DNA from: Methanosarcinales archaeon
GTDB taxonomy: Archaea; Halobacteriota; Syntropharchaeia; Alkanophagales; Methanospirareceae
DNA: 36,364 nt
Assembly (NCBI GenBank): GCA_030611585.1
Contig: JAUWPM010000008.1
Location: forward strand, 1 to 36,364
Direction: 5' to 3'
The notes under the pieces were generated by a model. It was not told the origin of the DNA and searched no databases. It worked only from the letters and a program-made list of their open reading frames with translations. Made by a program: the position numbers and the translations under genes. This document shows, piece by piece, positions 2,463 through 21,940 of the stretch; position 1 is the stretch's first letter, and every line of letters starts with the position of its first letter.

Positions 2463-3610
2463 CACACAACCGTTAGAACAGAACAGGGAGCGTTGTCTAC
2501 TATTTTCCTGATTATGTCTGACTTTATAACACCCGTTCCTCTCCATGGAATCACTGCGAGCTCGTAATTCCCACTTTTCACCTCTTTTACCGCTTCTATC
2601 ATTGGGTTACCTTCCACCCAATTTTCGATAATCCGTACGTTTCCTTTTTCTCCCATCTTTCTTATTCCGTCAATCAACTCGCCGGGAACCGTCTCCAAAA
2701 TGAGTAAATGCAGTTCAGCACCGCATAAATGAGCTATCTGAACCGCGTGCCTCCCGACACTCTCTGCTATCTCTGATGAATCGAGAAGGGCAATAATGCG
2801 TTCGTAATACCTGAACGTCCGTGCCACAAGAACGGGACAGGAAGCGGATTTTATTACCTTCAAAACGACACTTCGTTTAAACACTTTGTCCATGATGCCG
2901 AGTTCTTCCTGGTCTATAATTACATAATCAGGGTAATACGAATGCTCTTTTACACGGTCCATAATTATGCAGCTCGGATAATGCAGGTGCTTTTTTATAA
3001 TATCCATCAGTTTTTCCTCTTCCAGCAATATCTTAAGTGGCACACCCATCGCCTTTGCTTTGGATTCCATCTCTTTCCTGTCTATATCCACAGACGATAT
3101 AGCCGTAACCTCTGCCCTTGCTACGGAAGCAACTAACAAAGCTTCTTTGAACGCCTTCTCCACCGTATTTTCATTCAGTATCGGAACGAGGATTTTATCA
3201 CAAGGTGTGAGAGTTTCCCCTGCGCCAAACCGCAACAGATCACCGATGAGATTTGCCACTATCTTTGTAGGGTACATGATGTACTCAATGCCCAGCTTCC
3301 GGAACCGTTCTCTATCCTCAGGATCTTCCACCCGGACAATTATCTTAGGAACACCGTGTTTCTTCGCGATAGCCGCAGCTCGATAATTGACGTCGTCATT
3401 GCTCGTGAGCGAGATAAAAGCCGCGGCATCATCCAAACCCACCCGATTTAGCAATTCCTCATCACTTCCATCACCGGTGACTACCTCCACACCCGCTATT
3501 TCTGTGATCTTCTCCCGCTTTTCCTGATTTAGCTCAATAACCACCGATTCCGGCAACTGGGCAGCCAGTTCTCTCCCTACTCTCCCGCCGCCAACAATGA
3601 TCTTTTTCAT
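2462..3610 (-). CDS. TrkA-N (RCK) domain protein with tandem universal-stress-protein domains
   Basis: Cytoplasmic regulatory protein of 382 residues. Residues 1 to about 115 are a TrkA-N/RCK Rossmann domain with the dinucleotide-binding pattern VGGGRVGRELA and the acidic strand end VVIELNQEK, and with the later VVTGDGSDEELL and RVEDPEDRE patterns. Residues about 138-260 and 265-382 look like two universal stress protein domains; the second has ERIIALLDSSEIAES at its first strand and ends in APCSVLTVV, the usual C-terminal Usp strand. RCK domains gate cation channels and antiporters in response to NAD(H) or nucleotides, and Usp domains often bind ATP. The translational overlap with the CPA2 antiporter gene strongly suggests it is that transporter's regulator. 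The start codon ATG directly abuts a dispersed intergenic repeat (3608-3678). Confidence 0.87.
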   Translation of the reverse strand: MKKIIVGGGRVGRELAAQLPESVVIELNQEKREKITEIAGVEVVTGDGSDEELLNRVGLDDAAAFISLTSNDDVNYRAAAIAKKHGVPKIIVRVEDPEDRERFRKLGIEYIMYPTKIVANLIGDLLRFGAGETLTPCDKILVPILNENTVEKAFKEALLVASVARAEVTAISSVDIDRKEMESKAKAMGVPLKILLEEEKLMDIIKKHLHYPSCIIMDRVKEHSYYPDYVIIDQEELGIMDKVFKRSVVLKVIKSASCPVLVARTFRYYERIIALLDSSEIAESVGRHAVQIAHLCGAELHLLILETVPGELIDGIRKMGEKGNVRIIENWVEGNPMIEAVKEVKSGNYELAVIPWRGTGVIKSDIIRKIVDNAPCSVLTVV

Positions 3611-3678
3611 TGTATATAAAGTATAACTGCCGTAATTCTCTTTACGACACAGATTAACATTGATTTACACGGATTTAT
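3608..3678 (-). repeat. Dispersed start-proximal repeat, copy 1
   Basis: Read on the minus strand this is a run of 10-bp-phased units (CGTGTAAATC, then AATGTTAATC, then TGTGTC), followed by TAAAGAGAA and GGCAGTTATACTTTATATACA. It ends directly at the ATG of the TrkA-N/Usp gene at 3610. The same order of blocks recurs at 5414-5470, 9003-9062 and 21750-21812, and a partial copy lies at 6584-6620. This copy has three extra bases (ACG-type interruption) before GGCAG. Confidence 0.85.
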
Positions 3679-3718
3679 TTAGGGAGAACGGCACAGCCTA
3701 ATTTTCCAGTCTGTTGCG

Positions 3719-5413: not shown

Positions 5414-5470
5414 TTGTGTGTAAATCTGTGTCTTAAATAGAAGGCAGTTATACTTTATATACAACGAGAA
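5414..5470 (+). repeat. Dispersed start-proximal repeat, copy 2
   Basis: Plus-strand copy with GTGTGTAAATCTGTGTC, TTAAATAGAAGGCAG, TTATACTTTATATACAACG and AGAA, ending at the ATG of the exchanger gene (5471). The 3' extension ACAACGAGAAA is shared with the orphan copy near 9005. TTAAATA at 5433-5439 lies about 35 bases before the ATG and could serve as a TATA box with a short leader; the more obvious TTTATATA is too close to the ATG to do so. Confidence 0.8.
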
Positions 5471-6550
5471 ATGGTGTTGATCAACGTCGTATTGCTTGTA
5501 CTCGGCTTAGTATTACTCGCCAAGGGTTCCGATTTTTTCGTTAAATCCGCGGCATCGGTAGCGCAAAAACTTGGAGTCTCCGAATTCGTTATTGGTCTCA
5601 CATTAGTTGCATTGGGCACGTCAATACCAGAACTCGCCTCATCTGTGATCGCGGCTTTAGAACAGCAAAGCGGCATAGTAATAGGCAATGTCGTGGGCTC
5701 GAATATTGCAAACATCGGATTAATAGTCGGGCTCGGAGCGCTAATAGCCAGAATAAAAACGAAACAAGAAATGCTGAAACGAGATGGCTACATCATGCTT
5801 TTTGCCGCACTGCTGTTCTACGTCTTCATCATCAACGGGACGGTCTCAAGATCGGAAGCACTGATATTTCTGCTGTTGTACATTGCTTATACCGTGTTCT
5901 TATTTGAGGGGAAAACGAAATTGGAAGGCAAATACGAATTCAAAGAATTTATCAGATATTTTTTGGGATTTAAGTACATCGTAACTATACGAAGCATAAT
6001 AATCCCGCGCCTCAAGAACAAAAACAAAAACAAAAAAAAGATGAATAACAAGCCAGAAGAAATAAAAGCAAAAGAGCTATCCAAACCAGACATTAGTAGA
6101 GATTTCCTCGTTCTCATCATTAGTGGTTTCGCTATTGTTGTTGGTGCAAGCTATCTGGTGAATGAAGCGATTTTTTTTGCTGATTTTTTTGACATTCCAA
6201 AAACCGTAATAGGCATCAGCATTGTAGCACTTGGTACTTCGTTACCGGAATTAGGCGTGACAATATCGGCTGCAAGACAGGGCTACGGCAACATAGCTGT
6301 TGGCAACGTCATTGGTTCGAACATTGCAAATATATTCTTAGTTGTAGGCGTTTCGGCGATGATTTTCCCTTTGTCCGTTATAAAGCCAACGATATTCTAT
6401 CTCGCGCCGTTCATGATATTCATGAGCATTTTGCTTTTGATATTCATAAGAAGTAACTGGGAAATAAGTCGAATAAAAGGCATAGTATTTCTTACGTTAT
6501 ATGCCTTATTTTTAGCTGTTTTATTCTTCAACAATCTACTCATAATTTAA
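5471..6550 (+). CDS. Na+/Ca2+ exchanger-family (CaCA) membrane protein
   Basis: 359-residue integral membrane antiporter, expected to move Ca2+ (or another cation) against Na+ or H+. It has two homologous halves, each with the alpha-repeat signature of the family: LTLVALGTSIPELASSV with IVIGNVVGSNIANIGLIVG in the first half, and ISIVALGTSLPELGVTIS with IAVGNVIGSNIANIFLVVG in the second. About ten membrane spans flank a central cytoplasmic loop rich in Lys and Asn (about residues 178-205). Length and two-half topology fit the YrbG/Mj-NCX type. The ATG at 5471 begins directly at the first hydrophobic helix and follows the dispersed repeat without a clear ribosome-binding site. Confidence 0.93.
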   Translation: MVLINVVLLVLGLVLLAKGSDFFVKSAASVAQKLGVSEFVIGLTLVALGTSIPELASSVIAALEQQSGIVIGNVVGSNIANIGLIVGLGALIARIKTKQEMLKRDGYIMLFAALLFYVFIINGTVSRSEALIFLLLYIAYTVFLFEGKTKLEGKYEFKEFIRYFLGFKYIVTIRSIIIPRLKNKNKNKKKMNNKPEEIKAKELSKPDISRDFLVLIISGFAIVVGASYLVNEAIFFADFFDIPKTVIGISIVALGTSLPELGVTISAARQGYGNIAVGNVIGSNIANIFLVVGVSAMIFPLSVIKPTIFYLAPFMIFMSILLLIFIRSNWEISRIKGIVFLTLYALFLAVLFFNNLLII

Positions 6551-6583
6551 CGCTGGGGGGGAGAGATAGGGCTACAAAAACGA

Positions 6584-6620
6584 AATAAATCAGTGTAAAT
6601 CAGTGTCCTAAAGAGAATGG
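6584..6620 (+). repeat. Dispersed repeat, partial copy 3
   Basis: AAATCAGTGTAAATCAGTGTC then CTAAAGAGAATGG matches the first half of the dispersed element, but the GGCAGTTATACTTTATATACA half is missing. It lies just before the ribosome-binding site of the gene at 6630. Confidence 0.7.
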
Positions 6621-6629
6621 TGAGAGGAA

Positions 6630-7007
6630 ATGGAAGACTTGTATAATGTGCTAAAAGGAATAGGACTCGAAGCGGAGAGCAAGGTAAAGGGAGAGCTTTC
6701 GGGTCCGTCAGGGCAGATAAAAGCACTTCTGTATGATATGTTTATGCCGTTGGCTCTTAATTTACAGACCGAAGAGGAAAGTCATCATTATATATTCCAA
6801 AAGGGCGGCTCTATCTCTTTGTACCGGGAATTACATAATTGCCCCGACGTTGAGGTTTCAGGCGAGCATGCGGAGTTACTATTTTTGTTGCAAGCACGAG
6901 ATAAAGAGAGATTCGAGATGGATGAACGGAGAAGGAAAATAGAGATCAACGCATGCACCTTTAAAGGTAGGCAAGCGGTCATGAAGTTACGAGGATTGTT
7001 TTTATAA
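6630..7007 (+). CDS. Unrecognised small protein (125 aa)
   Basis: I do not recognise this family. The protein is soluble, mixed alpha/beta in appearance, begins MEDLYNVLKGIGLEAESK and has a short Gly/Ser/Pro loop (GELSGPSGQ). There are only two Cys (HNCPDVEV and NACTFKG), so a metal site is unlikely, and there is no signal peptide or membrane span. GGTGAG upstream of the ATG is a plausible ribosome-binding site. It is transcribed away from the exchanger and converges on the isocitrate dehydrogenase gene, with 19 bases between the two 3' ends. Length, start signal and coding character support a real gene; the function is unknown. Confidence 0.7.
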   Translation: MEDLYNVLKGIGLEAESKVKGELSGPSGQIKALLYDMFMPLALNLQTEEESHHYIFQKGGSISLYRELHNCPDVEVSGEHAELLFLLQARDKERFEMDERRRKIEINACTFKGRQAVMKLRGLFL

Positions 7008-7026
7008 GGAGTATAGGTTAGATCTT

Positions 7027-8238
7027 TCAAATTAACTTCTCAAGCCGCCGTGCGACCTCATCAATAAACTCTTCCGTGTACACAACTTTCTTCGCAGCCG
7101 GTTCCGCAAGCTTTGCCAGGTCCCCGGTCATTATCCCATCTCCTATCGTCTTTACCGTTGCGGCATCTAATTTATCCGCGAATACGCCAAGCTCCGGTAT
7201 GTCGTCAAGCTCTCCACGCTTTCTCAACGCGCCAGTCCATGCGAATATGAGTGCCACGGAGTTGGTAGACGTCCGCTCGCCCTTGAGGTACTTGTAATAA
7301 TGCTTCTGCACCGTGCCGTGCGCGGCTTCGTACTCGAAGTAGCCGTGCGGTGATACTAAGACTGAAGTCATCATCGCTAAGCTGCCGAACGAGGACGCAA
7401 GCATATCTGACATCACATCGCCATCGTAGTTCTTCAATGCCCAGAGCATGCCACCCTCCGACTTCATTATCCGTGCCACCGCATCGTCTATCAAGGTGTA
7501 GAAGTAGGTTATCCCCGCATCCTCAAACTTATCTTTATACTTCTCTTCGTAGACCTTCTCGAATATCTCCTTAAAATTGCTGTCATAGGTCTTGGATATG
7601 GTGTCCTTTGTGGAGAACCACAGGTCCACTCTCTGGTCAAGTGCGTAAGCGCAGCACGCCTCGGCAAAGCTAATTATTGATGCGTCAAGGTTGTGGATGC
7701 TCTGTATTATACCCGGTCCGTTGAACTCCTGTATCGTGTGCCTGACCTCTTCACCATTATTATTCGTGAACACGAGCTCCGCCTTCCCCGGTTCCTCAAC
7801 CCGGTACTCCACGTTCTTGTAAATATCGCCGTATGCATGCCTGCCCAATATGATTGGCTTTTTCCAGTTTCGCACTGTGGGTTTTATGTTCTTGACCATT
7901 ATGGGTGCTCTGAAGATAGTGCCATCCAGTATCGCACGGATCGTGCCGTTCGGGCTCTTCCACTGCTGCTTCAGGTTGTACTCATCCATCCGAGCTGCAT
8001 TTGGCGTTATCGTGGCGCATTTAACGCCCACGCCGTACCTCTTTATCGCCTCCGCAGCCTCTATAGTTATTCGATCATCGGTCTCATCTCGCTTCTCAAG
8101 TGCGAGGTCGTAATACTCGGTTTTGAGGTCAATATAAGGGCGGAGAAGCTGATCCTTCACCATACCCCACATTATCCTCGTCATCTCGTCCCCGTCCATC
8201 TCTACTAACGGAGTCTTCATCTGGATTTTATCAGTCAT
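7027..8238 (-). CDS. icd: NADP-dependent isocitrate dehydrogenase, type II (eukaryotic-like)
   Basis: Interconverts isocitrate and 2-oxoglutarate plus CO2 with NADP(H). The 403-residue length and the segments [49 protein letters not shown] and [11 protein letters not shown] are those of the homodimeric type II NADP enzymes of eukaryotes and some bacteria, not the type I enzyme usual in archaea. The C-terminal half has [12 protein letters not shown], which contains the coenzyme-binding loop and is typical of NADP specificity. The start at 8238 has no clear ribosome-binding site; ATG at 8220 is an alternative. The gene is 32 bases downstream of the VapC gene on the same strand and close to the aconitase/ATP-citrate lyase operon, so it could work in the same citrate branch. 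Horizontal acquisition is an inference. Confidence 0.95.
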
Positions 8239-8270
8239 TTTTTATTTGTATAGGAAAATTTGAAACATTC

Positions 8271-8681
8271 TTAGATATTTTCTATAAATTTCACAAAATC
8301 CAAGTTGCTTACTCGTTCACAAAGCCTTCTATCGGCGGTGATAAAAGTGAGTTCTGTTTCCTTCGCCAATGCAACATAAAAGGCGTCATAAACAGTTATG
8401 TTATACTCAAAAGCAAGTGTAACCGCTGAGTTTATAGTCTCAGGTATCGGAGTGACTATATCCATATCCATGTCAAATATAGATGTTAAAGCGTCACTGA
8501 CATCATTAGCATCGAAATTTGAATTGTATCTTAAGGCGTTAGCCAGCTCGTACAATAACAAATCCGGCACGACAACTTTTTCTTCCCCCATTCTGATCCT
8601 TTCTCTTATCTCTAAGGCTTTGTCTGTATACTCTTCCTCTGAAAACCATTTCACAACAACGGATGCATCCAGGATAATCAT
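8271..8681 (-). CDS. vapC: PIN-domain toxin, VapC family
   Basis: 136-residue PIN-domain ribonuclease. The expected acidic active-site residues are present: D5 in MIILDASVVVKWF, E45 in LLYELANALRY, D99 in VYDAFYVALA and D117 in FITADRRL. The start at 8681 is chosen because its ATG overlaps the TGA of the upstream gene (ATGA); a longer frame to 8723 exists but would overlap that gene by 46 bases. The pairing with a small upstream gene is the standard VapBC layout. VapC toxins cleave tRNA or rRNA when freed from the antitoxin. Confidence 0.9.
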   Translation of the reverse strand: MIILDASVVVKWFSEEEYTDKALEIRERIRMGEEKVVVPDLLLYELANALRYNSNFDANDVSDALTSIFDMDMDIVTPIPETINSAVTLAFEYNITVYDAFYVALAKETELTFITADRRLCERVSNLDFVKFIENI

Positions 8682-8860
8682 CTTGAATCCCGCCATTTCC
8701 TGATTTCTTTTGCGCCACTCCATCCTTTAGATTTCTTTCTTAGTCTATCCTGAGTTGAAATAGCATTTTCTATTCTGGTTCTGTTTCTCAATCTCGCTCC
8801 CACGATTACCTCCAATCTCTTTTCCATTACATTTATTTTGTCTGTTCTTCCAATCCCCAT
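8678..8860 (-). CDS. Small VapB-like antitoxin
   Basis: 60-residue highly basic protein translated just before VapC, with a 4-base ATGA overlap. Start ATG 8860 is chosen because AAGGAGG lies 7 bases before it; the ATG at 8866 is only a base or so from that site. The sequence has the patterns EVIVGARLRNRTRIENAI and KKSKGWSGAKEIRKWRDSR. I do not recognise a standard AbrB or ribbon-helix-helix fold, so the antitoxin call rests mainly on position and size. Confidence 0.65.
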   Translation of the reverse strand: MGIGRTDKINVMEKRLEVIVGARLRNRTRIENAISTQDRLRKKSKGWSGAKEIRKWRDSR

Positions 8861-8893
8861 TTTCATTCCTCCTTATTTATGAATACGTTTGTA

Positions 8894-8902
8894 TTATTTA
8901 TA
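8894..8902 (-). promoter_or_regulatory. Likely TATA box of the toxin-antitoxin pair
   Basis: Minus-strand CTATAAATA centred near 8898 is about 38 bases before the antitoxin start. It predicts a leader of about 11 bases that contains the AAGGAGG ribosome-binding site. Confidence 0.5.
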
Positions 8903-9002
8903 GTCATTCCAGTAATAAATTGCAAACCACGAGATTTCACAAGATTAACACAAGACCGGAAATCAAAGAGAAGAAAAACGATTCCGGCTTCTTGATCTTT
9001 GC

Positions 9003-9212
9003 TTTTTCTCGTTGTATAAAGTATAACTGCCTTCTCTTTAAGACACAGATAACACTGATTAAGCGAGTTTAGAGGTTTAGCTCGTTAGCGGCTCAGTCAC
9101 ATAACCAAACCGCTAAACCGCCAAACCGCCATATTATCATCTGTGTTAATTAAGCCCTTTCAGGGCTTGCGGGACGTGGGCAGAGCCCACGAGCGTTAAT
9201 CTGTGTCTATAA
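9003..9212. repeat. Composite repeat element between the toxin-antitoxin genes and aclA
   Basis: 9003-9062 is a minus-oriented copy of the dispersed repeat (GTGTCTTAAAGAGAAGGCAG, TTATACTTTATACAACGAGAAA) that is not next to a start codon. 9107-9130 holds three tandem 8-bp units, AAACCGCT and two AAACCGCC. 9138-9150 and 9193-9211 (CATCTGTGTTAAT, GCGTTAATCTGTGTCTATA) form an inverted counterpart of the repeat's ACACAGATT units and match 21858-21890 closely. Two hairpins lie between them. This 368-base gap holds no gene that I can support. Confidence 0.75.
9152..9191 (-). terminator. Twin hairpins downstream of aclA
   Basis: Two perfect stem-loops lie back to back: AAGCCCT-ttt/c-AGGGCTT (9152-9168) and CGTGGGC-aga-GCCCACG (9175-9191). 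They lie 44-83 bases after the aclA stop on that gene's transcript and interrupt a repeat arm that is continuous at 21858-21890. No strong T run follows, so a role in 3' end protection or as an inserted repeat is as likely as termination. Confidence 0.45.
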
Positions 9213-9234
9213 ATAATTTATTTTCTTGTCTCTT

Positions 9235-11103
9235 CTATTCTGCTTTCCGGTATCGCAGTGCCTCTCTCTCACTGGGTAACAGATAGAGAACGTCGTCCCA
9301 GGGATGCCGGTACAGTCTGGAATGTAAGCGTTTCTGGTCTAAGTAGTGCCCGATCATACCGATCGTACGCCCCAACACGAACATGCCATTGAGCGTCCCA
9401 ATATTAATGATCTCGTCTATCTCCTCCTCCGTGTAAATACCCGTAGAGCGCAGAATATCAACGAACAGGATGCCTACACACCCATCCACGTTCAATATGA
9501 GATTGTTCCTCTTGGCGGTTGTTATCTGCTCCACCTCAAGTGCGAAGTCCAGCAGTTCGTGCTTTGGCAGATTGGTAAACGCCCACTCTTCGAGCAGCTT
9601 TACACGCATGTCCGGGTTCTGCACGCTCTTCACCCTGTGCCCTATCCCCGGGATGTTTATGTTCCTGGCTTTCATCTCGCCCACAAACTGCCCTGGCGTT
9701 AAACCTCTTTCCAGGGCGCCCTTGAAGTACTTGGCAGCATCGTCTATTGCACCCCCAAATCGCGGACCTATTGTCAGCACACCCGATGCCACTGCGGCTG
9801 TTAGGTCCTTGCCTGCCTTTGCGGTTACGATAGTATTATGTGCCGCACTCACACACGGGCCGTGATCTGCAGTTATCTTCAGCGCAAGTTCTAAGAACTC
9901 CGTAACGTACTTCGGTAAGCGCTTCTTAAACCACAGCAACGAGATAACGTCACCCACACCGTAGCCCTCCTTGATAACCCTGCTTATCGGTATGCCCGCA
10001 TACAGCAGTTCCTCGCCACGGTCGTCCGAGATCGTACTGATAATATTGGTGGTCTTCCTCATGGTTTGCGGATTGTAACCCGCGGGTATTTCCTGCGGCT
10101 CCACCTCCTCCTTCTCCTCTATGACTCCCCCGGCTTTTAGATCTTCGTACACCCTGCGTATGAGTTCACCAAGGTCATCGTATGAGCTGGGGACGTATGC
10201 CCCAGCCGACTTGAGTGCCGCGTTCTTTGCGTCCGCGGTCTCAGCCTCACCACGCGCCATTGCTCCCGCATGTCCAAATTGTACCTCGCTGGGAAATACC
10301 TTTGCGCACGTACCGGTAACCCAGGCTACCACCGGCTTCTTTATTCTGCCTTCTCTTATTGCATCTGCTATCTCGTACTCGTCCTTACCGCCCACCTCGC
10401 CAAGCATTACCATCATCTTTATGTTCGGGTTTGCCTCGTATCGCAGCAGGTGTTCAACGAGTGTTGAACCGGGATATTTATCCCCGCCGATGGCAACTCC
10501 CTCATACATACCGTCTGAATTCAGCGAGATCATATTTGCCATCTCGTTCATCATACCACCCGACTTCGAGACGAATCCGACGCTTCCGGGTCTGTAAAGT
10601 TTTGACATAAGGAGATTGGACAAAGCTCCGCCAGCATTGCCTATCTTGAAGGCGCCCGGTACAAAGCCACCGACCGTTGCAGGTCCGATGATCCACTTGC
10701 CCAGTTTCTTCCGCAAAGCAATGAGTTCCCTTGTCTGCCTTTCCGGTATACCCTCAGCAATGATGACTACCGTCTTAATGGTGGGATAGTTGAGCGCCTC
10801 AACGGAAACGTTGTAAGCCGAGCGGAAGGATGCGAAGTTAATGACCACGTCAGCCTCAGGATGCTTCTCCACCGCGGTTCCGAGACTGTTGTACATCGGG
10901 ATCAAAATCTCATGCCAGCCGAAGAAGACCTTCGTAAACCCTCTGCGGCCACCGCTGGGGTTCACAACCGCAGCTACGGATGGCTTCTCCTTCCCGGACA
11001 GATAGTCAAAGTCCAGCATTCTCTGAACCGCCGCTTCCTGGTTACCGAAAATGATGGCTGTTGTATCCCGGTCAAACAATACATAATCTGGTCTGATGGC
11101 CAT
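9235..11103 (-). CDS. aclA: ATP-citrate lyase, large subunit (CoA ligase plus citryl-CoA lyase domains)
   Basis: Subunit of the enzyme that converts citrate, CoA and ATP to acetyl-CoA and oxaloacetate. Residues 1 to about 330 match the succinyl-CoA-synthetase-alpha-like part, with FVSKSGGMMNEM and the phosphorylated histidine H278 in QFGHAGAMARGEAE. From about residue 355 to the end is a citrate-synthase-like domain with GPCVSAAHNTIV, NIPGIGHRVKS and NLILNVDGCVGILFVD, which hold the catalytic His, His and Asp. This fused arrangement separates true ACL from the two-enzyme citryl-CoA synthetase/lyase route. Length (622) fits bacterial AclA. ATG 11103 is chosen over an upstream GTG because GGAGGTGAT lies 8 bases before it; the aclB stop ends one base earlier. 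This is the last gene of the aconitase-aclB-aclA operon. Confidence 0.94.
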   Translation of the reverse strand: MAIRPDYVLFDRDTTAIIFGNQEAAVQRMLDFDYLSGKEKPSVAAVVNPSGGRRGFTKVFFGWHEILIPMYNSLGTAVEKHPEADVVINFASFRSAYNVSVEALNYPTIKTVVIIAEGIPERQTRELIALRKKLGKWIIGPATVGGFVPGAFKIGNAGGALSNLLMSKLYRPGSVGFVSKSGGMMNEMANMISLNSDGMYEGVAIGGDKYPGSTLVEHLLRYEANPNIKMMVMLGEVGGKDEYEIADAIREGRIKKPVVAWVTGTCAKVFPSEVQFGHAGAMARGEAETADAKNAALKSAGAYVPSSYDDLGELIRRVYEDLKAGGVIEEKEEVEPQEIPAGYNPQTMRKTTNIISTISDDRGEELLYAGIPISRVIKEGYGVGDVISLLWFKKRLPKYVTEFLELALKITADHGPCVSAAHNTIVTAKAGKDLTAAVASGVLTIGPRFGGAIDDAAKYFKGALERGLTPGQFVGEMKARNINIPGIGHRVKSVQNPDMRVKLLEEWAFTNLPKHELLDFALEVEQITTAKRNNLILNVDGCVGILFVDILRSTGIYTEEEIDEIINIGTLNGMFVLGRTIGMIGHYLDQKRLHSRLYRHPWDDVLYLLPSEREALRYRKAE

Positions 11104-17574: not shown

Positions 17575-17677
17575 GCAGTGACTTCGAATCAAAAACCAAC
17601 TTCTAAAAATCCGGCAGTTCGCTTGTATTATTTCTTCTTCTCCGTTTGTCTGTGTAACCATCTGGGTAATCGCGAAT

Positions 17678-17785
17678 ATGATTTTGAGCATCGTTTCGGG
17701 CATAATCTCCGATAAAACTTTAACAACCGCGGAATGGCTCATCGTTCTTCCCCAAATGAGTATGATGGCAAAGGGGCCGCCGTGA
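17678..17785 (+). pseudogene. Possible C-terminal gene remnant or small ORF ending in QMSMMAKGPP
   Basis: A plus-strand frame, open from 17584 with an ATG at 17678, gives a 35-residue peptide MILSIVSGIISDKTLTTAEW... ending LPQMSMMAKGPP and stop. The same ending recurs at 20111-20146 as ILQMSLMETGPP and stop, and several of the base differences between the two are synonymous in this frame. This suggests both are ends of one former protein-coding sequence. I do not recognise the family. The rest of the 17575-17893 gap holds only the promoter of the next gene. Confidence 0.35.
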
Positions 17786-17787
17786 AA
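17750..17787 (+). repeat. Left direct repeat flanking the HD/nucleotidyltransferase island
   Basis: 38 bases that align without gaps to 20111-20148 with 30 identical positions; the conserved 3' part is CCGCCGTGAAA. The pair brackets the AT-rich two-gene island 17894-20094. Confidence 0.65.
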
Positions 17788-17853
17788 AGGTCAAGGGAAG
17801 AAAGAGATTCGTTATCCGTTAAATATTAGCGCAGAGGAAACAGACCCATAAGT

Positions 17854-17863
17854 TATTTATATG
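17854..17863 (+). promoter_or_regulatory. Likely TATA box of the HD/nucleotidyltransferase operon
   Basis: TATTTATATG centred at 17858 predicts transcription from about 17885, a leader of about 9 bases that contains AAGGGT before the ATG at 17894. Confidence 0.5.
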
Positions 17864-17893
17864 CTCATGAATAAATGAATAGATAAGGGTAAA

Positions 17894-19051
17894 ATGGCAC
17901 AAAATCTTTTGGATGCTTTTGATGACCAGCGGTATATTTACACCCAAGAGGAGATACAAGAAAATTTTGGAGCAGACATCTATCAGAGCATTATCAGGAC
18001 TCCAGAATTTCAGCGATTGAAAGGTATTAGTTTTTTAGGAACTATTGATGTATTTGATTTATTTGGTACGAAATACAAATTTAGTAGATTTGATCATTCT
18101 ATTGGTGTTGCGTTAATCGCAAAAAAAATATCAGAGATTTTAAATCTTGATCAAAATAGAACTAAAACTTTGATTGTTGTGCACCTTCTACACGATATTG
18201 GGCACCCTCCACTCTCTCACTGTTTGGAATCAATTTTTACTGAACATGTGCGTTACACATCTAATGGTCATCATACTCAGGCACGCAGATTAATCGTAGG
18301 TAGTTTGCAATACAAGTCGAAGGCCAACAATTTACATAAAATATTGAAGAAGTATTCGATAAACATCGCGGAAATTAGTTCACTTTTAAGCGGGGAAGGC
18401 GATAAAATTATGAGAACATTAATGAATAATCCATTCAATCCTGATACAATTGATGGAATAAATAGAGCAGCATGGTCTTTTGGTGAAAAAACTGTTCCTG
18501 CAGATGATATTCTCAAAAGTTTCTCCCTCGTTAACGGTGATGTTGTCTTAGATCTTAAATATAAGGATGCTTTAGATGCTTTTTGGTCACTTAAAAATAG
18601 AATATACTACAGATATATTTATAATACTAAAAATTTGATAGCAGAACACTTTTTAAGTACGTTGTTTGAGCAAATTGCCAATGAAGAGGATAATTTTAAA
18701 GAACTCTCTTTGATGACTGATAATGAGTTCTTATCTTATCTTTTTAAAAACGACAACCTTTACTCTACTTTGAACGAATGTCGGAAAAACAGTGATTTTT
18801 TTGAAAATTCCAAAAACGATTTTGCCTTCATGCGATATAATAATTTTAAAAAAAGAAAGTTAAAAAAATTCGTTTTTTTGGATACCAAAACTTTTAATGC
18901 ATCTTCTTTTATTAAACTTACAGATGCCAAAGATTGTTATAAAAGAAGTTTTAGTTATTGTGATTTGCCAAAAGATACTATATTTTTACATACGCTTGAA
19001 CAAAATATAGTAAAAGAGTATCTAACGGGTGGATATCCTAGCAGAAAATGA
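17894..19051 (+). CDS. SAMHD1-like HD-domain phosphohydrolase
   Basis: 385 residues with the HD metal-site pattern of the SAMHD1/dNTPase-like group (COG1078). H68 is in FSRFDHSIGVALIA, H100-D101 in VVHLLHDIGHPPLSH, and D184 in FNPDTIDGINRAAW, the position equivalent to the distal Asp. The N-terminal FQRLKGISFLG is the usual lead-in helix of this group. Known relatives hydrolyse dNTPs or other nucleotides; the substrate here is unknown. The gene is visibly much more AT-rich than its neighbours, with A/T-ending codons and many Lys, Asn and Phe. Its stop overlaps the next gene's start by 4 bases (ATGA), so the two are translationally coupled. The C-terminal 180 residues are not recognised. Foreign origin and a role in defence or signalling are inferences. 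Confidence 0.85.
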   Translation: MAQNLLDAFDDQRYIYTQEEIQENFGADIYQSIIRTPEFQRLKGISFLGTIDVFDLFGTKYKFSRFDHSIGVALIAKKISEILNLDQNRTKTLIVVHLLHDIGHPPLSHCLESIFTEHVRYTSNGHHTQARRLIVGSLQYKSKANNLHKILKKYSINIAEISSLLSGEGDKIMRTLMNNPFNPDTIDGINRAAWSFGEKTVPADDILKSFSLVNGDVVLDLKYKDALDAFWSLKNRIYYRYIYNTKNLIAEHFLSTLFEQIANEEDNFKELSLMTDNEFLSYLFKNDNLYSTLNECRKNSDFFENSKNDFAFMRYNNFKKRKLKKFVFLDTKTFNASSFIKLTDAKDCYKRSFSYCDLPKDTIFLHTLEQNIVKEYLTGGYPSRK

Positions 19052-20094
19052 ATGAAACTGATACGATGACCCCCTTTCAGGGATCCTTAGCAGAATTAGG
19101 TTTAAGAGATGAAAATATCCCTTTTATTTTAAATAACTGGCATTTTTCTGTTAGAACTTTGTTAAAGCTTCAAGATAAGGTTTTTGATAGTTTTAAAGCT
19201 GCAGAATTTAATAATGATGTTTGTTTAGCAGCAGTAGGTTCATATGGCCGGCTGGAGGCATCCAGCTCATCTGATTTAGACTATCTCTTAATTTACAAAG
19301 GGGAAGAAAATGAGAGTTATAAATATAAATCACTTGATGATAAAATTTCACAGATATTGGATGAAGAGGGTACTAAAAAACCTTCAGGGATTGGCAAAAC
19401 TTTTGTGAGCCCCGCATCTCTAACCCAATTAACTACTAATATCGGTGGAAACAAAGATAAAACCCAACATCTAACTTGGCGGGTTCTTATGCTTACGGAA
19501 TCTAAATGCCTTTATAATCCAACGCTATATAAACAAATTTTATCTCGGATTTTTGAGCATTATACTAAAACCTCAAGAGAAAAGAGGGGTTATCCAAGAG
19601 CGTTGATAAACGAATTAATAAGATATTATAGAACAGTTGCTGTTGATTATTTGTACAAAGTCGAGGAAATAAATAAACCGTGGGCGTTGAGAAATTTTAA
19701 GTTGCGACATTCGAGGAAGTTCTGGTTTTTCACTAATATGGTTTTAATATTACATACATTCAGAGGATTACCAGACACATTTTCTGATGATTGTTACGAC
19801 CATCTTTTCGATGAGATACGTTTGTCCCCAATCGAAAAATTAGCAATAGTATTATTAGAAAACGACAAAAAAGACCTTATTATGCCTTTCACTCTGTACA
19901 ATGAGTTCTTAGGAATAATTAACGATTCGAACATCAGAGAAGAAATGAGTGAAATTGATTATGTTTCTCGTTATGAAAACCACACATTTTTAGAGCTTAG
20001 GCAGAAATCAGAAAGATTCCATGAGACGTTATTAGAACTCTTTGATAAGTTCGAAATATGGGATGATCTTATTTATGATCTCTTCATTCTGTGA
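19048..20094 (+). CDS. Pol-beta superfamily nucleotidyltransferase (GlnD/DUF294-like)
   Basis: 348 residues. The nucleotidyltransferase core starts near residue 58 with AAVGSYGRLEASSSSDLDYLL: the GSxGR motif at G64-R68 and the metal-binding pair D76 and D78. A third acidic residue is not obvious. Residues about 180-348 are a helical domain (RALINELIRYYRTVAVDYL, WALRNFKLRHSRKFWFF) like the helical part of GlnD/DUF294 proteins. Such enzymes transfer NMP to proteins, nucleotides or antibiotics. Coupled with an HD phosphohydrolase, the pair recalls the two activities of GlnD (add and remove a nucleotide) split over two genes. Same AT-rich composition as the partner. The stop is 16 bases from the right flanking repeat. 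Substrate unknown. Confidence 0.8.
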   Translation: MNETDTMTPFQGSLAELGLRDENIPFILNNWHFSVRTLLKLQDKVFDSFKAAEFNNDVCLAAVGSYGRLEASSSSDLDYLLIYKGEENESYKYKSLDDKISQILDEEGTKKPSGIGKTFVSPASLTQLTTNIGGNKDKTQHLTWRVLMLTESKCLYNPTLYKQILSRIFEHYTKTSREKRGYPRALINELIRYYRTVAVDYLYKVEEINKPWALRNFKLRHSRKFWFFTNMVLILHTFRGLPDTFSDDCYDHLFDEIRLSPIEKLAIVLLENDKKDLIMPFTLYNEFLGIINDSNIREEMSEIDYVSRYENHTFLELRQKSERFHETLLELFDKFEIWDDLIYDLFIL

Positions 20095-20632
20095 AACAGC
20101 TTATCCAATCCTCCAGATGAGCCTGATGGAGACGGGACCGCCGTGAAACAAAAGGCATATTAAAAATGATGAATGCAAGTTCTCACGGTGGATATTGTTA
20201 GAAGCATATACGTGATAAGTATCCTACACAGAAACTAAGAGGCAACTACGGAGCACAAATCTAAGCTCCTGGCCTTTGCCGTTCGCCGAGCAGACTATGA
20301 GAGGAACACAGACTGTTCAGTAGTGTCAACGAAGGCGACCACATGCTACGAGGAGGAAGTGATCTTTAGTGATGTTTTTTCATTAACAAAACTATTTTCC
20401 ATTAAATGTAGATAAATCCTTTCAGGCATCCTTTAGGTAATCTTAGGTTTATGACTTCTTATCCACTTTCGGAAGTACTATAAACAGTGCGAATATTATT
20501 TCGTCTTAAATGATTCTGTTTCTCATTTAAAGAGTGAAAACCGGTGCATTTTTGAAAAGGAGTGAAAAGATACGAAATAACGAAAATGAAGCTATTTCAA
20601 TCTCTGGGAATACAAATTAAGGCACGAGCGAA
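20095..20632. other. Non-coding stretch between convergent nucleotidyltransferase and pelota genes
   Basis: 538 bases without a supported gene. It begins with the right flanking repeat (20111-20148). At about 20250-20410 a plus-strand frame of roughly 57 codons is open (EHKSKLLAFAVRRADYERNT...) but has no start codon and no family that I recognise; it may be a decayed gene. The remainder is AT-rich with no clear structure. Confidence 0.5.
20111..20148 (+). repeat. Right direct repeat flanking the HD/nucleotidyltransferase island
   Basis: Partner of 17750-17787 (30 of 38 identical). In one frame it reads ILQMSLMETGPP and stop. Confidence 0.65.
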
Positions 20633-21751
20633 TCACACCCCGAACCTCAACAACGCCGCAATCCCACCCAACGCGTTGAGCCGCTTCCCCGGCTCGAACT
20701 CCGTACTGAAGACTACTACTTCACCCCTTTTCCGTTCCGCCTCTTCGAGCATTTTATCTATCTCCTCCGCTTCCCGTTCTGCTTCAGCGCCTTCAATGCG
20801 CGACTTCATCAGCTTCTCATCGCAGACCAGCAGCGTCTCTACCGCACCGCACTCCAACGCCCTTCGCACTTCATCCTTACCGTAAACCGCTTTGTTATCC
20901 CAGTCCTTGCTTATCTCCGCCATCAACCGATCCAGCAGTGTCACTTCCTTAGTGAGCCGCTCCTCCTTCTTCAACCGCTCCACTGCGCCCCGTTTCAGCA
21001 CTTCTAAGAAGCCGGAAACACCAATTGAAGACGTCTGCTCTATTCTCGTTTTCTTCGCTAATTCCGCATCCTGCTCCTTCAGGAACGCAAAGAAATCGTC
21101 TTTTATGAAGCCCGGACCCGCAATGATCAGCGCTTCCGCCTGTGTAACTTGAACAGAATTTTGCACGTGCTTCAACAGATCGTTAAAAAAGTCGTTTTTA
21201 CCTCCGCCTGCACTCTCTATGCCCTTGCCAGAGCCGTACCGCAGCGAAAACAGCTCGTCCACGCCGTACTGTTTCACTACTCCCGCAATCGCCTCGCCGT
21301 CCTCTACGGTCACCACGAGCACGTCCGGCGATGCAACCACCTTCTCCGCTTCTCTCAATCGCTTCAATTGATGCTCTCTCCATTCCTTCACTACGGAAAG
21401 CTTCACACCCGGTTCGATATTAAAAGTATGATAAGCACCCAATTCCGTCTCAATTCCATGCTCAATAACGCCCTTTATACGTAACCTGCGCGAGAATTTG
21501 TGGAATTCAACGCCTTCCGTCCGTATACCCAACCGAACTGGCTTCTTATCCGCCTTATCCGGTCGTACCTTATCGGTTGCCTCCTCTATCCTTCTGTACG
21601 TAACCGAATACACGAGGTCGCCCGCTTCGATTACGTGCTTGAGATGCCACAGGTCGTCCAGAGATTCGGGCACCAGCGAGATCTCTCCCACACGTTTCCT
21701 CTCACCGCGTCCTTTCTCCTTCGTCTTGAGCTTCCTCTTGACAATTTTCAT
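20633..21751 (-). CDS. pelA: Pelota, ribosome rescue and mRNA surveillance factor
   Basis: 372-residue eRF1-like protein that recognises stalled ribosomes and, with ABCE1, releases them; in archaea it works with aEF1A. Domain 1 has MKIVKRKLK, then SLVPESLDDLWHLKHVIEAGDLVYSVT, the family's N-terminal signature, and GVEFHKFSRRLRIKGVIE. The central domain has ALIIAGPGFIKDDFFAFL and the last has KAVYGKDEVRRALECGAVETLLVCDE. There is no GGQ motif, as expected. An insert of about 12 mostly basic residues (TKEKGRGERKRVG) separates the first strand from the conserved VPESLDDLW; I do not recall it in other archaeal Pelota. The ATG abuts the dispersed repeat at 21750. Confidence 0.95.
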   Translation of the reverse strand: MKIVKRKLKTKEKGRGERKRVGEISLVPESLDDLWHLKHVIEAGDLVYSVTYRRIEEATDKVRPDKADKKPVRLGIRTEGVEFHKFSRRLRIKGVIEHGIETELGAYHTFNIEPGVKLSVVKEWREHQLKRLREAEKVVASPDVLVVTVEDGEAIAGVVKQYGVDELFSLRYGSGKGIESAGGGKNDFFNDLLKHVQNSVQVTQAEALIIAGPGFIKDDFFAFLKEQDAELAKKTRIEQTSSIGVSGFLEVLKRGAVERLKKEERLTKEVTLLDRLMAEISKDWDNKAVYGKDEVRRALECGAVETLLVCDEKLMKSRIEGAEAEREAEEIDKMLEEAERKRGEVVVFSTEFEPGKRLNALGGIAALLRFGV

Positions 21752-21892
21752 TGCATATAAAGTATAACTGCCTTCTGTTTAAGACACAGATTTACACTGA
21801 TTTACGCGGATTTTTCTTCTGTTGGACCTGGCTATTTTTGACGGCATTGATCTTTTCATCTGTGTCAATCTGCGTTAATCTGTGTCTATAAT
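21750..21892. repeat. Dispersed start-proximal repeat, copy 5, with inverted counterpart
   Basis: 21750-21812 read on the minus strand: CGCGTAAATC, AGTGTAAATC, TGTGTC (10-bp phase), TTAAACAGAAGGCAG, TTATACTTTATATGCA, ending at the pelota ATG. TTAAACA is centred 28 bases before the ATG. 21858-21890 on the plus strand (CATCTGTGTCAATC, TGCGTTAATC, TGTGTCTATA) is the inverted counterpart, so the whole is an imperfect palindrome with an internal spacer of about 45 bases. Confidence 0.8.
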
Positions 21893-21940
21893 TTATTTTT
21901 TGTCCTGCTCGTGATATTTCCCTTTAATCATAAATAGCCT

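Follow-up and report, generated by a model that had tools for sequence, protein, structure and literature searches.

Two overlapping genes of a methane-oxidising archaeon code for an HD phosphohydrolase and for a nucleotidyltransferase (NTase) of the Pol-beta type. We propose that together they form a mobile conflict module, for antiviral defence or for addiction, with the logic of Clover and non-orthologous parts, in which the HD protein would be the effector and the NTase the regulator. We assign this reading a probability of about 0.42. It is founded on intact active sites, on a pairing that is obligate, co-inherited and sometimes fused, on horizontal mobility, on carriage by a plasmid and a filamentous phage, and on the partner swap of the NTase, all of which are observed. 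From these features we infer the division of labour, with the HD protein as effector and the NTase as restraint.

An AT-rich gene pair in an ANME-1 genome

The window, by which we mean the whole stretch of 36,364 nucleotides analysed, belongs to a Methanophagales (ANME-1) draft genome of 1.71 Mb in 136 contigs; its nearest named relative in our genome scan is Methanophagales QENH01000185.1. The locus comprises the following features.

17894..19051, + strand: HD phosphohydrolase gene, 385 aa, SAMHD1/EF1143 type
19048..20094, + strand: Pol-beta NTase gene, 348 aa, PADLOC family PDC-M70A
19048..19051, + strand: ATGA overlap coupling the HD and NTase genes, read from the sequence
17833..17893, + strand: 60-nt leader, conserved with a second ANME-1 copy by DNA homology between the copies
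17856-17863, + strand: TATA-like TTTATATG inside the leader, read from the sequence, a putative promoter element
17643..17787, + strand: left-flanking copy of a dispersed ANME-1 intergenic repeat, with a 36-bp core 81% identical to the right copy
20076..20148, + strand: right-flanking partial copy of the same repeat, starting within the 3' end of the NTase gene

A preliminary description of this DNA had reported two genes joined by ATGA and far more AT-rich than the genes on either side. Both observations hold: the reading frames at 17894-19051 and 19048-20094 share the ATGA at 19048-19051, and the pair has a GC content of 32.4% compared with 47.0% for the rest of the window. The lowest value for any other, non-overlapping 2.2-kb stretch of the window is 39.6%, hence the AT-richness of the pair is not local noise. 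Both genes are intact, and the overlapping or abutting arrangement is found in nearly all relatives.

The HD protein combines a SAMHD1-type catalytic site with an altered pocket

The HD protein matches the Pfam HD family at 8e-9, and a profile of its family searched against the PDB retrieved EF1143 (2o6i) at 2e-22, 2hek at 6e-21 and SAMHD1 at 2e-16, in agreement with its earlier designation as SAMHD1-like. EF1143, SAMHD1 and 2hek are also the nearest structures to the AlphaFold (AF2) model, which has a pLDDT of 78 and is poor past residue 306. The protein thus has the SAMHD1/EF1143-type fold together with the HD metal and catalytic residues. Both the catalytic set (H68, H100, D101, H104, H109, E112 and D184) and a family-specific set (F47, H127, T185, G188, W231 and K234) are invariant or nearly so among 37 family members; H68, H100-D101 and D184, the HD-site residues picked out previously, are present in 37/37. 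The metal and catalytic residues are the same in the pair family, in the core paralogue and in other SAMHD1-type proteins.

Three substrate-side positions are switched in the pair family: Q to F47 (37/37), K/R to T185 (37/37) and Y to G188 (35/37, with alanine in the other two). The PDB-profile alignments agree at all three. In SAMHD1, Q149, K312 and Y315 contact the nucleotide sugar and phosphates. These residues or their equivalents are absent from the pair-family HD proteins, and Q, K/R and Y are kept in the core paralogues, including that of the window's own genome. CloA residues Q53 and Y246, the equivalents of switched positions, contact dGTP (PMC12265719). Overall, the protein resembles the HD dNTPases of the SAMHD1, EF1143 and COG1078 type in fold, metal site and catalytic residues, and departs from them at F47, T185 and G188, in H127, D228 and W231, which are invariant across the pair family and different in outgroups, and in its obligate NTase partner. 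Since the dNTP-contact residues are replaced throughout the pair family, dNTP depletion, one of the defence functions first suggested for the locus, is doubtful, and a simple dNTPase reading is weakened. Judged from its sequence, the HD enzyme is probably active yet not a standard dNTPase.

Two other HD genes were noted during these searches. The core SAMHD1-like paralogue of the same genome (L002:1033-2295, G000:C71) has intact dNTP-pocket residues and has counterparts in nearly all archaea searched. A divergent HD gene on Rhizobium etli pA (L155:1564-4980), with M, N and N as pocket residues, is closely packed with the genes for two hypothetical proteins and is possibly a further HD-based module.

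The NTase belongs to a candidate defence family and resembles GlnE and DrrA

The NTase has the motif GS-x-x-R-x-E...SD-x-D and a C-terminal helical domain. It matches PADLOC PDC-M70A (PDLC04778) at 2e-48 and gives a weak DUF294/GlnD match (2e-6 to DUF294). The AF2 model is confident (pLDDT 90), and over its full length it fits best to the DrrA domain that AMPylates Rab (6yx5) and to both GlnE domains (1v4a/3k7d), at a TM score of about 0.45; HalB and MntA match it in part only. The previous assignment to Pol-beta nucleotidyltransferases holds, the enzyme being of the GlnD/GlnE type, and the residues on which it was based (G64-S65-Y-G-R68, D76 and D78) are invariant in all 49 aligned members.

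PADLOC PDC families derive from a guilt-by-embedding screen (PMC12988326). PDC-M70 couples an M70A NTase to an M70B TIM barrel, and the NTase of the pair belongs to the M70A family. Unlike in PDC-M70, itself only an unvalidated candidate, the partner here is an HD enzyme, and the two kinds of NTase occupy separate clades of the NTase tree. The HD protein gave no match to PDLC04779 (M70B), and M70B-type TIM barrels are absent from the HD loci.

The HD and NTase genes are inherited together

A genome scan with the NTase alignment yielded 80 loci, which together with plasmid loci gave 84 NTase loci besides the window. An HD gene lies immediately upstream on the same strand in 37 of these 84, far beyond chance, so that the proposed check on whether the two genes are conserved together came out in favour of the pair. 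The count includes three Pseudomonas loci in which HD and NTase form one polypeptide with both active sites intact (L028:4927-7002, L046:4804-6990 and L076:4825-6897); these fusions have host-like GC, and the fused form may be resident rather than mobile. In ANME-1, one further copy of the pair was found in 99 genomes of relatives, 74% identical and with the same gene order and overlap. Pairwise distances of the HD and NTase proteins are correlated (r=0.90, a value reached in 0/2000 permutations, with organismal phylogeny uncontrolled). The HD-NTase pair is thus an ancient, co-inherited and mobile module.

The remaining loci point to other partners. A TIM-barrel protein of the PDC-M70B type accompanies the NTase at about 39 of the 84 loci, HD and TIM partners never occur at the same NTase locus, and three NTase loci have a histidine phosphatase and neither of the other two. 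In a quick tree of the NTases, the HD clade, made up of 37 rows and a single Pseudomonas that lacks the HD gene, is separate from the TIM clade, with SH-aLRT values of 83-92. Because HD-partnered and TIM-partnered NTases fall into separate clades, we consider that a constant NTase has been wired to alternative partners. A histidine-phosphatase gene is also next downstream at six HD-NTase loci; L014 was left out of the six, as its histidine phosphatase is on the opposite strand and over 1 kb upstream.

The NTase-histidine phosphatase arrangement without HD or TIM barrel occurs at L008:7941-9636, L067 and L078, and in Rhizobium sp. BT04 it stands amid glycosyltransferase and transporter genes near rtcR. 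The TIM barrel of the sister clade is AP_endonuc_2-like (for example at L009, L010, L019, L036 and L065) and is encoded downstream of the NTase in Proteobacteria, Planctomycetes and Bacteroidota, whereas many Actinobacteria encode it upstream. The PADLOC definition of the PDC-M70 candidate does not cover this full breadth.

The pair is rare, AT-rich and carried by a plasmid and a filamentous phage

Compared with its own flanks, the pair is richer in AT at 33/36 loci, and its GC content is lower by 10.8 percentage points on average (Wilcoxon p 2e-9, the loci not being fully independent); only the fused Pseudomonas forms depart from this. Of the 394 genomes of archaea searched, just two contain the full NTase, and these two alone contain the pair-type HD protein as well; the HD score is about 297 bits in them and 119 or less in all other archaea. 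The core HD relative is present in 311/322 near-complete archaeal genomes, and the window's genome carries it in addition to the pair. In E. coli the pair was found in 1/5426 complete genomes, on the 4499-bp ColE1-like plasmid pISHS7_5, whose replicon backbone (52% GC) is accompanied by no large genes other than HD and NTase (32% GC).

A viral scan with the NTase gave no match, and one with the HD profile led to the contig IMGVR_UViG_3300035491_000331 from IMG/VR (L194). Its genes, which include a replication initiator, coat and minor coat proteins, Zot/pI and a repressor, identify it as a filamentous phage (inovirus). The cargo at 6891-10914 consists of a DNA cytosine methyltransferase followed by HD, NTase and histidine phosphatase genes, at 33% GC against 50% for the backbone. 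As to the suggested proximity to defence genes or mobile elements, type I and II restriction-modification, integrase and conjugation genes do occur among the neighbours of bacterial loci, although they are scattered and the survey has no control set. No constant third gene was found beside the HD-NTase pair among the bacterial loci, whose neighbours are heterogeneous.

The pair shares the plan of Clover but not its proteins

Clover is the only characterised system that we found with an HD plus NTase plan. In Clover, the HD dGTPase CloA is activated by dTTP and the NTase CloB makes the inhibitory nucleotide p3diT; losing the NTase active site turns the HD enzyme toxic (Yamaguchi et al., 2025; PMC12265719). 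Like Clover, the pair is mobile and joins an HD phosphohydrolase gene to a Pol-beta NTase gene in a two-gene operon, with invariant metal ligands and an H...E catalytic dyad of the same spacing. Unlike CloA, which is of the Dgt type, the HD protein of the pair is of the SAMHD1/EF1143 type, its metal-ligand spacing differs (84 versus 125), and the equivalents of Q53 and Y246 are replaced. The NTase is of the GlnE/DrrA type with 348 aa, in contrast to a CloB homologue of 259 aa with which it has no detectable homology.

For these comparisons, PDB entries 9p8s-9p8v ('DNTP triphosphohydrolase', eight chains) were taken as CloA; the preprint prints 8P9S-8P9V for CloA and 9P8W for a companion dGTPase. 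The HD profile gave no match to 9p8s-9p8v at E<=0.01. Starting from a CloA fragment, we located a dgt gene of 50% identity in Phaeobacter pP14_b; after 8 bp comes a gene for a 259-aa protein with a GG...SDVD motif (L132:3487-4266), the putative CloB homologue. In hhalign, the NTase profile aligned with this protein with a probability of 1.5%, and the CloA homologue aligned with the HD profile over the HD core only. Since the HD and NTase profile tests against the Clover proteins fail, the pair is not Clover; as far as sequence comparison can tell, it is Clover's plan realised in different, non-orthologous families. The earlier remark that no named system has exactly this pair must accordingly be qualified: the plan itself exists in Clover, and the statement stands in so far as Clover is not orthologous.

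Of the other dGTPase loci inspected as Clover candidates, none has an annotated adjacent NTase (L131 is unannotated); Phaeobacter pP14_b has one. On Pantoea pSOD02 (L130:2423-4596) a Dgt-like gene is annotated in two pieces and directly followed by a 212-aa protein.

Proposed mechanism and alternative explanations

In the conflict module that we propose, the HD protein would be the effector and would hydrolyse a nucleotide-type phosphate bond. The NTase would act as regulator: with an NTP as donor it would either nucleotidylate the HD protein or build a small nucleotide signal, and in this way hold the HD enzyme inactive as long as neither infection nor loss of the module upsets the balance. 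This reading draws on Clover as a tested precedent, on the PADLOC candidate family and on AT-rich mobile carriage. Against it, the NTase fold is nearest to protein AMPylases (DrrA, GlnE) rather than to CloB or HalB, and a writer/eraser enzyme of the GlnD kind would account for the HD-NTase fusions equally well. Because the HD pocket has lost three dNTP-contact residues, effector chemistry of the Clover type should not be taken for granted. Tentatively, the loci may represent a new defence or counter-invasion family parallel to Clover, spread between ANME-1, Nitrospirota, Proteobacteria, plasmids and filamentous phage, in which a GlnE/DrrA-like protein NTase governs exchangeable partners (HD, TIM barrel or histidine phosphatase), or has its action undone by them, and the HD substrate is a non-dNTP nucleotide bond.

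A close rival, somewhat less probable, is a writer/eraser pair: the NTase would nucleotidylate a third molecule (protein or RNA) and the HD enzyme would remove the nucleotide again, in the manner of GlnD within one chain and of the AMPylase DrrA and the de-AMPylase SidD as two. The add/remove reading of the preliminary description may thus still be correct. The NTase shares fold and motif with the NTases of the GlnD, GlnE and DrrA/SidD systems, being nearest to DrrA and GlnE in full-length fold and to DUF294/GlnD in sequence; GlnD likewise joins NTase and HD, as do the three Pseudomonas fusions with their host-like GC. The HD pocket has changed away from dNTPs, and the HD, histidine phosphatase and possibly TIM-barrel partners could all be phosphoesterases, although a TIM barrel is not known as one. 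On the other hand, neither a conserved third gene as target nor a PII or glutamine synthetase context accompanies the pair, and its patchy, phage- and plasmid-borne spread suits conflict better than housekeeping modification. GlnD itself is a single NTase-HD-ACT-ACT chain that acts on PII and has the reverse domain order (the pair has HD first), whereas the pair is two genes with no ACT domains; the GlnD equivalog models gave 11-25 bits against cut-offs of 519-1299, and no ACT match.

Plasmid or phage addiction with no antiviral role, one of the two proteins being a toxin and the other its antidote, appears improbable. HEPN-MNT, in which the NTase modifies the toxin, offers an analogue, the NTase core is related to MntA, and the genes overlap and travel as inovirus cargo or as the only cargo of a minimal plasmid. 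However, the two proteins are large and have conserved catalytic sites, a fused form would be unusual in a toxin-antitoxin system, and the partner is an HD enzyme and not a HEPN ribonuclease. An ordinary housekeeping or metabolic enzyme pair, as the metabolic relatives of both families and the host-like GC of the fused forms might suggest, is very improbable: the patchy distribution (2/394 archaea, compared with 311/322 for the core HD paralogue, and 1/5426 E. coli), the AT-rich composition and the plasmid and phage carriage speak against it, so that the refuting outcome foreseen in the preliminary description, a characterised housekeeping family, did not arise. Least credible is bona fide Clover, a dTTP-activated dGTPase silenced by p3diT, for despite the common two-gene plan and HE dyad spacing the HD profile that finds SAMHD1 at 2e-16 misses CloA, and both profile tests rule out membership.

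We found no paper describing the HD-NTase pair in the open-access literature, a search to which supplementary tables, subscription journals and preprints were largely external; a prior listing as an unnamed candidate is possible, and there is a real chance that the pair is a new family. If the proposed reading is true, an HD hydrolase with an NTase is a recurring design in prokaryotic immunity, with two or more origins in different protein families, and SAMHD1-type enzymes, protein AMPylases and nucleotide signals become linked. The candidate family PDC-M70A would gain a function, and uncultured ANME-1 a further candidate module that is not CRISPR. Since versions of the pair exist on an E. coli plasmid and in an inovirus, the module can be tested directly in laboratory strains.

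Leader and flanking repeats

The second ANME-1 copy lies at another genomic location, and its DNA homology corresponds to window positions 17833-20095, that is, to the leader and both genes. A scan for sigma-70 promoters and terminators gave matches at chance level. Two copies of a degenerate repeat of about 145 bp, which ends in a conserved GGGRCCGCCGTGAAA-like core, bracket the island. The repeat is dispersed through Methanophagales genomes (L105, L117, L118 and L121), and its occurrence between genes across this group argues against a target-site duplication; being a dispersed intergenic repeat, it is only a possible insertion or recombination footprint, outside the mechanism. No empty site was recovered from sister genomes, as the left and right neighbours lie on separate contigs in the other genomes of the genus that have both. 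A second family of short dispersed repeats is located at window positions 3604-3689, 5418-5473, 6581-6617, 9003-9060 and 21745-21904, and BLAST searches indicate that it is common to intergenic regions of the window and to other Methanophagales contigs.
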